A DNA stretch of 34,425 nt from a virus. The DNA is taken from positions 1 to 34,425 of the IMG/VR virus record IMGVR_UViG_3300042465_003448. One strand, given 5' to 3'. The position numbers were made by a program, and so were the translations under genes. Below are positions 8,662-34,425 of the stretch, piece after piece (within the stretch, counting starts at the first letter, position 1; each line of letters starts with the position of its first letter). The notes below the pieces were generated by a model. The model worked only from the letters and a program-made list of their open reading frames with translations. It was not told the origin of the DNA and did not search any database.

Positions 8662-8692
8662 TTTGAAATTAAGTAATTAGTTTTTATATTTG
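8662..8692 (+). promoter_or_regulatory. Promoter TTTG-N19-TATATTTG of the replication operon
   Basis: TTTG at 8662-8665 and TATATTTG at 8685-8692 with a 19-nt spacer. The next real start codon is 8828, so the transcript carries a leader of about 130 nt, far longer than other leaders here. That leader is strongly structured (8693-8827). Confidence 0.8.
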
Positions 8693-8827
8693 CCATGCGT
8701 TAAACATTCGACAAATGCCTAGAAAATTTCATATTTTAAACATAGCCCGACTTCGGTGCTTGATTGTGTTAGGGAGGTCGAATGCCCTGCGCCACATGAT
8801 AGTGCCGACTTCGGGCGAATTTTTTTT
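8693..8827 (+). ncRNA. Structured leader RNA with terminator-like 3' hairpin (attenuator candidate)
   Basis: No gene fills this stretch. GCCCGA 8745-8750 plus TCGG 8753-8756 pair with CCGA 8805-8808 plus TCGGGC 8811-8816 (10 bp, one CT/CT internal loop), followed by GAA and eight U (8820-8827) that touch the ATG at 8828: an intrinsic-terminator layout. CATTCGAC (8705-8712) is an exact complement of GTCGAATG (8777-8784), while AGGG/CCCT (8771-8774, 8785-8788 area) form a competing small hairpin. Mutually exclusive pairings suggest a regulatory switch or a stand-alone short RNA. No known riboswitch class is recognised. Confidence 0.55.
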
Positions 8828-9526
8828 ATGAGAGATACTACAATTATCTACCGTAGTTTTTACGAAGCCATAAAAGACTTACCTGCTGAAAATCAAGCGG
8901 AGTTATGGGTTGCTATATTTGAATTTTCATTAAACTTTAATGAGGTTGAATTAACTGGACTTTCAAAGACCGTTTTTAAATTGATTAAGCCACAATTAGA
9001 GGCTAATAATAAGCGATTTGAGAACGGTAAAAAACCAAAAGTAAAGCAAGAAATAAGCAAACCGGAAGCAAAACATAAGCAAGTTGTAAGCAAATCGGAA
9101 GCTAATAACAATAACAATAACAATAATAATAATAATAACAATAACAATTTAGATACTGCTTCCTCACTACGTTCGGAACAATTTGAAAAGTTTTGGGAGT
9201 TTTACGGTAAACATGGAGCGAAGAAACCAGCAAAGCAAAGGTTTATGAAACTAACAGAAACCGAAATGGAGGCTTTGCGTAAACACTTGCCAAAGTATTT
9301 AGACTCAACACCGGATATAAAATTCAGAAAACACGCTGAAAGATACCTTTCTTCAAAACTTTGGGAAAATGGTGATATTGAAAATCTATCTAAACCAGTT
9401 GAATATTGGACAAACCCATTTGATTATTGGAATAGGGATTTGACACCAGAAGAATGGAAGCGAGTACCACCGGACAGAGTAGAAGGCAAAAAAGATAACG
9501 ATATAAAAAGGAGGATGGGTATATGA
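8828..9526 (+). CDS. DUF6291-type replication protein (helicase-loader-like)
   Basis: A 232-aa protein from ATG 8828; upstream in-frame GTG 8756 lies in the leader RNA and is rejected. Residues 1-70 (TIIYRSFYEAIKDLPAENQA, ELWVAIFEFSL, LIKPQLEANNKRFENG) match the DUF6291 family. Next come a Lys-rich linker and fifteen consecutive Asn. The C-terminal domain (FEKFWEFYGKHGAKKPAKQR, then KHAERYLSSKLWENGD) resembles the end of phage replisome organisers and helicase loaders. The gene is coupled by ATGA to a primase-ATPase, so a role in replication initiation or loading is likely; DNA binding is inferred. Confidence 0.75.
   Translation: MRDTTIIYRSFYEAIKDLPAENQAELWVAIFEFSLNFNEVELTGLSKTVFKLIKPQLEANNKRFENGKKPKVKQEISKPEAKHKQVVSKSEANNNNNNNNNNNNNNNLDTASSLRSEQFEKFWEFYGKHGAKKPAKQRFMKLTETEMEALRKHLPKYLDSTPDIKFRKHAERYLSSKLWENGDIENLSKPVEYWTNPFDYWNRDLTPEEWKRVPPDRVEGKKDNDIKRRMGI
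9104..9148 (+). repeat. AAY trinucleotide tract encoding 15 Asn
   Basis: Fifteen consecutive AAT/AAC codons form a flexible poly-Asn linker between the two domains of the replication protein. Mixed AAT and AAC codons limit slippage, but length variation by whole codons is plausible between isolates. Confidence 0.9.
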
Positions 9527-11232
9527 TTTGCACCGTTTATAATAACATACAGCACATAACCGAGCCTAAACTTTACGATGTTGACGTTGTACTTGGTTGG
9601 ATAAGAGATTGTCGAATTAAGGACAAAATAGAGAAGTTGCGCAAAACAACCGACCTAGAGTTAAATCGTAAACTAAAGTCGGAACTTCCTTCCATCGTAT
9701 TTGCCGGAACATTCACAAACCGAACTGATGAACATTGCGAAGCACTAAGCGGATTGGCAATACTTGACTTTGACCATTTAGCAGATGTAGAAGCAACAAA
9801 AAAAGAATTAGCCAAAAAGCCGTATATCTATGCTGCATTTGTTTCGCCAAACGGTGATGGAGTAAAAGCACTAGCACGAATACCAAAGCAGTTTGCAAGG
9901 TTTGCCGGATATTATCGAGGACTTCAAAAGCATCATCCCGAACTTGACCCGAAAAATAAAAACATTAGCCGAGTTTGTTTTTTATCGTGTGACCCGAATA
10001 TCTACATAAACAAAGACGCTACTGAGTTTACAGAATACGTGGAAGAACCGAAAAGCGCAGACCGTCCTATTTACCACAACGAAATAAAGATTGAAGATAC
10101 TAGCATAATAATTCAAAATCTTTTTAAGTGGTGGAGCGGTAAGTATCACATGACAGCCGGAAACCGAAACCATAATATATTTGTTTTGGCTTCTGCTTTT
10201 AACGAGTACGGAGTAAGTCAACACGAAGCACTTTATTTTTGCTACCAATACCAACAAGAGGATTTCACCGAAAAAGAAATTGAACAAACGGTAAAGTCAG
10301 CCTACCGGAAAACAAACCTACACGCTACCAAAGAATTTACAGCGGTTGAAAAGTTAGCAAACTATTCACCAAAAGAAATACCAACGCAACCGGAAGCGGA
10401 ACTATCTTTGCCACAACAGATATTTAATTCAGCATTTGTTGATGTTTCTAAAAAGTTAGACTATCCGAAACCTGCTATTTCAATCGGTTATCACACCACA
10501 GGAGGCAATAACTATCCAACTTCATTTGGTACTTATGGTAACTTTTCGGCAATAGTCGGAGCGTCAAAGTCTAGAAAAACATTTTTAAAATCGCTTTTAG
10601 TTTCTGCTTATGTTGGTGGGCAGTCTGATAGATACTTAGGTCACATCAAAGGGCATAGAGATAGTGGGCATTTTGTGATTGACATAGACACCGAGCAAGG
10701 CGAATGGCACGCTCAAAATGTATTTAAGCGTATTCCTAAAATGTGCGGAGGTAATCCCGACTTTTATAAACCTTTTGCGCTTAGACCTTACAGCCACTTA
10801 GAGCGTATTCAGTTTATTGATTACTTGGTGTACGAAAGTCAGTACAAAGACAATATCGGTTTAATGGTGATAGATGGACTTGCTGACTTGGTTGCAGATT
10901 TCAATGACTTGAAAGAAACTAACCTATTAATTCAAAAGGTTATGAAATGGACTGATGATAAGAAGTTCCACCTAATGACTATTATCCACCAAAACAGCTA
11001 CACGAACAAAGCAACCGGACACTTAGGAAGTAGCATCCTAAAGAAAGCAGAAACCGTTTGCAACTTAGCAATAGTTGACGATATGGCTCAGGTTACATTT
11101 AGCTATACAAGAGGCTTCCCGATTGACAAAGTATATTTTAAAATTGATGAAGATGGATTGCCTTTTGTTGGTGATACACCACCACCTGCGCCAAACCTAA
11201 AAAAAATTGATAACGAAAAAACACCATTCTAA
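9523..11232 (+). CDS. Primase-ATPase (BT4734/VirE-type N-terminus, RecA-like C-terminus)
   Basis: A 569-aa multidomain replication protein. Residues about 55-190 carry LSGLAILDFDHL (Asp82, Asp84) and SPNGDGVKALARI (108-120), the signature of the BT4734-like/VirE_N primase-type domain of Bacteroidota elements. A helical primase-C-like region (about 195-270) follows, with NRNHNIFVLASAFNEYGVS. The C-terminal third is a RecA/RepA-like ATPase: a divergent Walker A, GASKSRKT at 346-353, and Walker B LMVID at 447-451. It likely primes and unwinds DNA at the fork. It is coupled to the replication protein upstream and a nuclease downstream by short overlaps. Confidence 0.85.
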   Translation: MICTVYNNIQHITEPKLYDVDVVLGWIRDCRIKDKIEKLRKTTDLELNRKLKSELPSIVFAGTFTNRTDEHCEALSGLAILDFDHLADVEATKKELAKKPYIYAAFVSPNGDGVKALARIPKQFARFAGYYRGLQKHHPELDPKNKNISRVCFLSCDPNIYINKDATEFTEYVEEPKSADRPIYHNEIKIEDTSIIIQNLFKWWSGKYHMTAGNRNHNIFVLASAFNEYGVSQHEALYFCYQYQQEDFTEKEIEQTVKSAYRKTNLHATKEFTAVEKLANYSPKEIPTQPEAELSLPQQIFNSAFVDVSKKLDYPKPAISIGYHTTGGNNYPTSFGTYGNFSAIVGASKSRKTFLKSLLVSAYVGGQSDRYLGHIKGHRDSGHFVIDIDTEQGEWHAQNVFKRIPKMCGGNPDFYKPFALRPYSHLERIQFIDYLVYESQYKDNIGLMVIDGLADLVADFNDLKETNLLIQKVMKWTDDKKFHLMTIIHQNSYTNKATGHLGSSILKKAETVCNLAIVDDMAQVTFSYTRGFPIDKVYFKIDEDGLPFVGDTPPPAPNLKKIDNEKTPF

Positions 11233-13589: not shown

Positions 13590-13613
13590 TTAACCAAAAC
13601 CAAACCAACTATG
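13590..13613 (+). repeat. Early leader repeat, second exact copy
   Basis: These bases match 4331-4354, including the ATG of the downstream gene, apart from at most one edge base. This supports a functional start-site motif rather than chance similarity. Confidence 0.8.
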
Positions 13614-15770
13614 AAAACAGAGTATTTAGAGTTTCTGCAAAAGAAACAGAAAACCCACATCGAAAGTGGCTTTGAAGTCAACGAAGCCGACTTAAATTCA
13701 AACCTTTTTGACTTTCAAAGGTTCATTGTGAAACGAGCATTAAAAGCAGGGAAGTATGCCATCTTTGCGGATTGTGGACTTGGAAAAACTTTGATGCAAC
13801 TTGAATGGGCAAATAGAGTTTGCCGTCAAACTAATGGCAAAGTTTTGATACTTGCACCTTTAGCGGTAAAGGGTCAAACAATAAACGAGGCTAATAAATT
13901 TGGCATTGACCTAACTGGCATTGACATAAATAATTATGAGCAATTAGAAAATATTGATTGCTCTAAATATTCGGGAGTTGTACTAGATGAAAGTAGTATC
14001 TTGAAAAATTACTCGGGGTCTTATAAAACTTTAATACTTCAGCTATTCGAAAAAACACCTTATAAACTAGCATGTACCGCTACACCTTCACCAAATGATG
14101 AACTTGAAATAGGTAATCATGCAGAGTTTTTAAGCATAATGACCTCGCAGGATATGAGGGCAATGTACTTCACAACTGATAAAGAACTTATTAAAGGTGA
14201 TAAATATCGACTTAAAAAATATGCTGAAAAGGAATTTTATCAATGGATAAGTAGTTGGGCGGTTATGATTAGCAAACCTAGTGACTTAGGGTTTGATGAT
14301 GTCGGGTATTCACTACCTGCGCTAAATTACATCGAACGCAAAATAGTAACCGAAAGCAGAAACAATGGGATGCTATTTAACTCCGTTTCAGTTTCAGCAA
14401 CTAATTTTAATGACGAATTAAGAATAACTAAGTTGGAACGGTTAGGCGAAGTAGCCGAAATAGTAAACGGTTCAACAGAAAACTTTATAATTTGGATTAA
14501 ACAAAATGAGGAAGGTGATTTATTGCGTTCACTTATTCCAGATGCTATTGAAGTAAAGGGAAGTGACACGGTAGAGTTTAAAGAAAAGCACCTACTAGGA
14601 TTTGCTAAAAATGAGTTCCGTGTATTAATCACTAAAAGCAAAATAGCGCAGTTCGGTTTGAATTATCAAAACTGCAATAATCAAGTATTTGCATCACTCG
14701 ATTTTAGCTTTGAAAGTCTTTACCAATCAATTAGACGCTCCCATCGATTTGGGCAAAAGAAAACCGTAAATATTTACTTAATAACAACCGACACTATGCA
14801 AAACGTAATCAACTCAATTCAAGACAAAGAAGCTAAATTCTTAAAAATGCAAGATGAAATGCGACTGGCTATTTTATCCAACACTAAAAAACAAGTTAAT
14901 CAAACTGAAAGTAAAAGTTACTTAGGCGAAGACTACAAGTTAATACTTGGTGACTGCGTTGAGGAAGTGGCAAAGTTACCCGAAAACAGCATTGACTATT
15001 CTTTTTTCAGTCCACCTTTTGGTGCGCTTTACGTTTTCAGTAATGACCCAAAAGACATGAGCAACGTAAAAAACAATGATGAGTTTTTAGAACATTTTAA
15101 ATATTTGATTAGCGATTTACTCCGAGTGATTAAACCAGGCAGGTTAGTTTCAATTCACATGATGCAAAGCACAACATTACTAGGACGTGATGGCTTTTAT
15201 TCAATAGTTGACTTTAGAGGTGACTTAATTAGACTATTCCAAGACTGCGGATTTTACTTCCATGCTGAAAACATGATACGTAAAGACCCAAAGACTGCAG
15301 CAATTAGAACTAAAAACAGGCAATTAATGTGGGGTACTACTAAAAAAGATAGTTCGATTGTTAGACCAGGATTAGCTGATTACATTTTGACTTTCAAAAA
15401 ACCAGGCGAAAATGAAGTGCCAATTCAAAATAATATTCCTTTTGATTTGTGGTGCAAAATAGCTGAACCTATATGGATTGACGTGCAGGAGGGCGATACG
15501 CTTGACTACCGAGCAGCTAGGGCAAGTGATGATGAACGTCACATTACTCCAACACAATTACAGCCGATTGAGTGGTGTTATAACATGTGGTGCAATAAAG
15601 GTGAGGTTGTGTTAAGTCCTTTTAGTGGAGTAGCTAGTGAGGGTTATGTTGCTTTAAAGACTGGTCGAAAATATATAGGAATTGAGTTGAAAGAAAGCTA
15701 TTTTGATTTATCCAAAAAGAATTTAGAAAGCGCAGTACTATCCAAAACACAAGTCGAACTATTCAGATAG
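13611..15770 (+). CDS. SNF2-like helicase fused to a DNA methyltransferase
   Basis: A 719-aa fusion. Residues 30-430 are a superfamily 2 ATPase: motif I ADCGLGKT (53-60), motif II VVLDESS (DESS 126-129), motif III CTATPSP (about 155-161), and motif VI SIRRSHRFGQ. Residues about 440-719 are a beta-class amino methyltransferase: catalytic SPPF (467-470) and AdoMet-binding SPFSG (669-673), followed by GRKYIGIEL. SPPF suggests N4-cytosine or N6-adenine methylation. The enzyme probably translocates on and methylates phage DNA, protecting it from host restriction; P1 DarB is a distant functional parallel. No separate endonuclease gene adjoins it. An intrinsic terminator follows. Confidence 0.85.
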   Translation: MKTEYLEFLQKKQKTHIESGFEVNEADLNSNLFDFQRFIVKRALKAGKYAIFADCGLGKTLMQLEWANRVCRQTNGKVLILAPLAVKGQTINEANKFGIDLTGIDINNYEQLENIDCSKYSGVVLDESSILKNYSGSYKTLILQLFEKTPYKLACTATPSPNDELEIGNHAEFLSIMTSQDMRAMYFTTDKELIKGDKYRLKKYAEKEFYQWISSWAVMISKPSDLGFDDVGYSLPALNYIERKIVTESRNNGMLFNSVSVSATNFNDELRITKLERLGEVAEIVNGSTENFIIWIKQNEEGDLLRSLIPDAIEVKGSDTVEFKEKHLLGFAKNEFRVLITKSKIAQFGLNYQNCNNQVFASLDFSFESLYQSIRRSHRFGQKKTVNIYLITTDTMQNVINSIQDKEAKFLKMQDEMRLAILSNTKKQVNQTESKSYLGEDYKLILGDCVEEVAKLPENSIDYSFFSPPFGALYVFSNDPKDMSNVKNNDEFLEHFKYLISDLLRVIKPGRLVSIHMMQSTTLLGRDGFYSIVDFRGDLIRLFQDCGFYFHAENMIRKDPKTAAIRTKNRQLMWGTTKKDSSIVRPGLADYILTFKKPGENEVPIQNNIPFDLWCKIAEPIWIDVQEGDTLDYRAARASDDERHITPTQLQPIEWCYNMWCNKGEVVLSPFSGVASEGYVALKTGRKYIGIELKESYFDLSKKNLESAVLSKTQVELFR

Positions 15771-34130: not shown

Positions 34131-34425
34131 CATAGTTTGTACCTTTAGCGCAACAACTATCCAAGCGGAAACAAAAAGCGTTTCACTTGTGTTGACGTTC
34201 CCAGCCACTCAATTACCTAGTAACATTTGCGAAGAAGTCAAAGATTGTTTAGGTATCTCACCAAGTGGCGAAGATGATTACTTTCTAAACGAGCAAGGTG
34301 ATTGGGTGCAGGTGCAAGGCGGTGGCGGTGGAAATCAAACACTAAACGAAGTTTTAGTAGAAGGCAATGAAACAGATGGGGAAGATATATTGATTTCAGA
34401 TGGCGACCAAATACAATTTGATAAT
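34120..34425 (+). CDS. Tail fibre, 5' part (continues at position 2 to 2083)
   Basis: True 5' end of the fibre gene: ATG 34120, MIIDIVCTFSATTIQAETKS, VSLVLTFPATQLPSNICEEV, then the overlap region that repeats bases 1-163. The ATG overlaps the stop of the previous gene by 11 bases. The N-terminal 48 residues are strand-rich, likely the virion-binding part. Confidence 0.85.
   Translation, partial: MIIDIVCTFSATTIQAETKSVSLVLTFPATQLPSNICEEVKDCLGISPSGEDDYFLNEQGDWVQVQGGGGGNQTLNEVLVEGNETDGEDILISDGDQIQFDN
34263..34425. repeat. Right copy of the 163-bp terminal overlap
   Basis: Repeats 1-163 with T at 34299 in place of C at 37. See the left copy. Removing one copy gives a circle of 34,262 bp. Confidence 0.9.

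Follow-up and report, generated by a model that had tools for sequence, protein, structure and literature searches.

A probable pseudoknotted leader RNA in front of the replication operon of a putative Bacteroidetes phage and its relatives

The locus

The window analysed here is a virus record of 34425 bases whose gene content is that of a tailed phage, with genes for ERF, Gp157, a DUF6291 initiator-like protein, a primase/helicase, a helicase-methyltransferase and a terminase. Positions 32-150 and 34294-34412 are nearly identical (one pattern matched both), possibly because the phage record has a terminal repeat. The replication operon lies on the + strand. Its first gene encodes a replication-initiator-like protein with a DUF6291 N-terminal domain (rep, 8828..9526) and its second a primase/helicase-like protein with a BT4734-like N-terminal domain and PriCT-1 (9523..11232). 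Within rep, a run of AAT/AAC codons at 9100-9150 encodes an asparagine-rich linker, and relatives have this as well. In front of the operon, on the same strand, is a Bacteroidetes-type promoter (8662..8692) with a -33 element TTTG at 8662-8665, a 19-nt spacer and a -7 box, TATATTTG, at 8685-8692, a promoter type that suggests a Bacteroidetes host for the phage. Where would transcription start? In Flavobacterium psychrophilum the -7 box occupies positions -12 to -5 (PMC9723704), and placing the box of the window there gives G8697 as the predicted +1, the first base of a hairpin (P1).

The leader runs from 8697 to 8827 and has no gene of its own. A sequence-only reading had described a promoter followed by a non-coding leader, a pair of complementary octamers and, abutting ATG 8828, a GC-rich stem plus a U8 run; all of these are present. 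It had also called the leader unlike others here; of the nine promoter-like matches on the + strand of the window, this promoter is the only one with such a leader. An N-terminal extension of rep from the in-frame GTG 8756 was considered and rejected: homologues start at ATG 8828, and the related locus L024 has an in-frame TAA just 5' of its ATG. No small reading frame was seen in the window leader.

The predicted fold

RNAfold of the window leader gives P1, a long P2 stem and an AGGG/CCCT hairpin (P3) whose loop is AG followed by GTCGAATG. P1 (+ strand, GCGTT 8697-8701 / AATGC 8714-8718) holds in its loop octamer A, CATTCGAC (8705..8712), the 5' side of a putative loop-loop pseudoknot; the 3' side is octamer A', GTCGAATG (8777..8784), and the two octamers are exact complements. 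P2 (8745..8816) consists of P2a (GCCCGA 8745-8750 / TCGGGC 8811-8816), P2b (8753-8760/8801-8808) and P2c (8765-8768/8793-8796), with P3 (AGGG 8771-8774 / CCCT 8785-8788) inside it. After P2a come GAA, the U8 run (8820..8827) and the start codon. This end is terminator-like, with a gap of 3 nt between stem and U run and about 60 nt enclosed by the stem; it was not among the terminators listed by a simple scan. The sequence-only reading had taken the AGGG/CCCT hairpin to compete with the pairing of the octamers. Octamer A' is the loop of that very hairpin, so both can form together.

Could the complementarity be a chance product of an AT-rich spacer? In 173 of 5000 dinucleotide shuffles of the window leader, a complement of at least 8 nt is found between the first 34 nt and the rest, and the folding energy has a z score of only -1.85, equally low values being reached in 8 of 200 shuffles. 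Taken alone, the octamer match and the fold give weak to modest support, and the strong evidence is comparative. Compensated changes in L024 and covariation across the family stand against chance, an explanation already refuted for the family and barely credible for the window leader.

Leaders in related phages

Searches with the rep protein and the primase gathered 65 loci. The window leader itself was recovered in L020 (99%) and in L024 (70%), the latter 83% identical over the aligned leader, and the promoter is also found in both. L024 reads TATCTGAC/GTCAGATA at the octamers where the window has CATTCGAC/GTCGAATG; three of the eight pairs carry changes on both sides, with pairing kept in all. 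In P2a of L024 an A-U pair has become U-A and one additional pair is present, and in P2b eight pairs are kept through several changes, some of them double-sided; the register of P1 is shifted. Sequence search for further members of this subclass returned only L020/L283 and L024/L284, the remainder being chance matches, and a nucleotide comparison of the window region against the phages collection likewise gave chance matches only. The window subclass consists of two distinct sequences (window/L020 and L024). At other loci, this rep gene is preceded by leaders that are unrelated in sequence but follow the same plan.

The first of these groups, class I, comes from viral contigs gathered by a pattern taken from a sequence-conserved loop and linker. 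An alignment of 27 members over P1, P2, P3 and A/A' has 95.2% of its cells paired and double-sided changes in 22 of its 27 pairs, with the counterpart of P1 covarying. Its covariation score is 0.600 against 0.193 in shuffles (0 of 500 reach the score), and 0.06 to 0.11 when slid. The members of this alignment were chosen by a 7-nt A/A' match rule, so the A/A' count is inflated. A covariance model, R1, was built from class I without the A/A' pairs (with a short Infernal calibration, so that E-values are rough). All 14 of the examined matches outside the training set have the A/A' helix, 8-9 bp long with at most one G-U pair, some of these 14 held-out leaders being identical or closely related to one another. 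This held-out check, and the class IV set described below, are free of the bias of the 7-nt rule. A U run follows P2 in 27 of 27 class I members, and the leaders lie mostly 16-32 nt before the ATG, typically 24-26, with one outlier at 145. The window leader has the class I architecture, with A in a 5' hairpin loop, an inner loop of two purines plus the 8-nt A' (a P3 loop geometry common to both), and an enclosing stem and U run before the ATG. R1 gave no match at the window leader, so that the case for common descent of the classes is one of shared architecture and position.

A further 80 loci came from searching with a profile of the rep N-terminal domain. A large group, class IV, has octamers or nonamers such as GACTATCCG/CGGATAGTC, GCGTACCCT/AGGGTACGC and GCTCGTTCG/CGGACGAGC. 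Its members were picked by conserved segments that exclude A and A'; in the 28 aligned, A/A' is 99.6% paired with seven of nine pairs covarying, and all helices together are 99.4% paired. In the class IV leaders listed, A begins at the fifth base after the -7 box, which is the predicted +1. Most lie 9-14 nt before the ATG, with a variable U content. Might the octamers be a hypervariable specificity code? This idea was dropped, as in class IV the A/A' columns are no more variable than the P3 columns (0.42 vs 0.44). Most class IV leaders also have a 13-codon frame (MK..NP..TALP) just after octamer A, for instance in L292:37-155; a conserved leader peptide was rejected, the frame being broken or shifted in some members. 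Class III (L019 and L021) keeps P1, P2, P3 and A/A' despite changes in A/A' and P3, and the same topology is seen in the single cases L289, L301, L310, L343 and L320. Read by eye, most of 44 dereplicated leaders beside a promoter and this rep gene show the plan. A perfect complement of at least 7 nt is present in 32 of the 44, against 15% of shuffles, although a few of the 32 are not the A/A' pair. At 18 other loci the rep gene has no nearby promoter.

By comparison of sequences, the predicted fold is found again in at least four groups of related phages, whose leaders differ in sequence. Covariation, which the sequence-only reading had proposed to look for in relatives, is present, and an absence of sequence or structure conservation is excluded. 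A mutually exclusive switch between octamer pairing and hairpin is not supported: in the alignments A/A', P2 and P3 are all paired simultaneously, so pseudoknot and hairpin coexist across the family.

How far does the family extend? Against Rfam 15, which includes Bacteroidetes candidate RNAs of similar kind (candidate cis-regulatory or small RNAs of Bacteroidetes-type genomes), the window leader and 12 relatives matched no family at the gathering score, and relaxed thresholds gave nothing, the near misses lying far below. R1, under stricter filters, matched 0 of 296 Flavobacteriales genomes; a pattern scan of the genome collection gave no convincing member among the matches listed and inspected, and inspection by eye showed no such leader in Riemerella, Nitratiruptor and a faecal phage, which are cultured relatives that have a DUF6291-like gene. 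No description of the element was found in the part of the literature that was covered.

An RNA at a fixed place

Is the element selected as RNA or as DNA? Helix cells in two alignments include 58 and 60 G-U combinations against 5 and 0 A-C. G-U pairs without matching A-C pairs indicate that the selected strand is the transcribed one, and that selection acts on RNA and not on DNA. A replication origin or similar DNA element, with inverted repeats working as DNA, would suit the neighbourhood of replication genes, but the near absence of A-C cells, the single orientation and the fixed distance from the transcription start make it very unlikely. The leaders begin about 0-4 nt from the predicted +1. 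The operons 3' of them begin with varied initiator or helicase-loader families (DUF6291-like, DnaD-like and others) together with primase-helicase genes, and since the first genes belong to different families, the RNA travels with the operon and not with one protein.

A few copies of the leader precede other early genes, and in many records there is a single copy. In class IV, second leader copies (L306:515-633, L308:515-633, L309:521-639 and L341:522-640) lie before a helicase-methyltransferase gene resembling window 13611-15770; their octamers differ from those of the rep-gene copy on the same contig, in too few cases to weigh. At L014:1587-1685 a class I leader precedes what reads as a PAPS-reductase-like/ParB-like operon, not a replication operon, and a second leader precedes rep there. 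Early operons of the phages HK022 and lambda start with structured leader RNAs, put and nut, which occur as paired sites. A cis-acting RNA of this style, acting on the transcribing polymerase so that it passes terminators in early operons, would likewise sit at the start of such operons, up to two per phage, and the copies before the rep operon and the helicase-methyltransferase gene recall the paired put/nut sites. The fold is a different one, however, a terminator-like stem forms the end of the element itself, and many records have a single copy; this analogy seems a poor candidate.

Two copies in some phages, a promoter of its own and a U run after P2 in every class I member would also suit a free small RNA, terminated after about 100-130 nt and acting in trans, with the replication genes expressed by readthrough or from another promoter. 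The sequence-only reading had allowed for such an RNA. It becomes less likely as the element is fixed just 5' of the start codon, with narrow spacing, in nearly all cases; classes III and IV show a weak U run; and the variable parts covary with one another inside the molecule, with no conserved free antisense segment seen. A free small RNA is thus improbable, if somewhat less so than a put/nut-like element.

Mode of action

Taken together, the comparisons suggest that the leader 8697-8827 is likely a cis-acting structured RNA, pseudoknotted, at the 5' end of the replication-operon mRNA and controlling that operon. The comparative data show the fold and its place, whereas control of expression is inferred from the fixed place of the element between promoter and start codon in replication operons with non-homologous initiator genes. 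Of the attenuator, switch or small-RNA design put forward from the sequence, a structured and conserved leader likely controlling the replication operon is strongly supported, and the exclusive two-state switch is not supported. The leader would fold while it is transcribed, with P1 presenting A in its loop and P3 presenting A' as a loop. The two loops would then pair over 8 bp, inside the larger terminator-like stem, and the C-rich/G-rich P2 stem would close the structure immediately before the first gene.

How might such a structure act? Conditional termination at the U run is one tentative answer, favoured by class I and the window: a terminator is plausible there, with a U run in all, and weaker in classes III and IV. 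Pairing of A with A' can precede synthesis of the 3' arm of P2, and the pseudoknot could in this way set whether P2 forms as a terminator. Restricted access of ribosomes to the adjacent start codon is an equally tentative answer, favoured by classes II-IV, in which P2 ends 9-14 nt before the ATG. Flavobacteria do without Shine-Dalgarno sequences, and structure around the start codon tunes translation and lowers initiation (PMC6847099); P2 near the ATG could act on initiation in the same manner. The paired 5' end could instead protect the mRNA, which we consider unlikely, as we do, to the same degree, some other mode. The trigger might be a protein of phage or host, or else a metabolite. No single mode fits all classes, because the U run is inconstant in classes III and IV and the spacing to the ATG differs in class I.

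Among known systems the nearest in kind is the leader pseudoknot of T4 gene 32 mRNA, an H-type pseudoknot 67 nt 5' of the start codon that is bound by the gene's own product (PMC3014915). In both cases the mRNA of a phage replication protein has a pseudoknot in its leader, before the start codon, the present one being recognised by sequence comparison only. They differ in fold, in position and apparently in regulator: here a two-hairpin loop-loop pseudoknot lies at the predicted 5' end of the transcript, a stem and U run stand beside the ATG, and the first genes are non-homologous between members. As the first genes differ in this way, repression by the first-gene product, as in T4 gene 32, is less likely. 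With attenuators built on intrinsic terminators the element shares a promoter, a structured leader and a GC-rich stem with a U run before the operon; unlike them, it has no mutually exclusive structures, the octamer pairing from an inner hairpin loop in a way compatible with the stem.

A bolder and still doubtful proposal is that these leaders form an undescribed superfamily in which a loop-loop pseudoknot locks the mRNA 5' end, with its sequence freely rewritten and its pairing kept. The module would be swapped before non-homologous replication operons and would gate them via one shared trans factor. Bacteroidetes phages are abundant, and to our knowledge little is known of the timing of replication genes in them. 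The leader probably sets when these genes are made, and a covariation-backed leader family on the same operon across many phages offers concrete test constructs and models for phage genome annotation.
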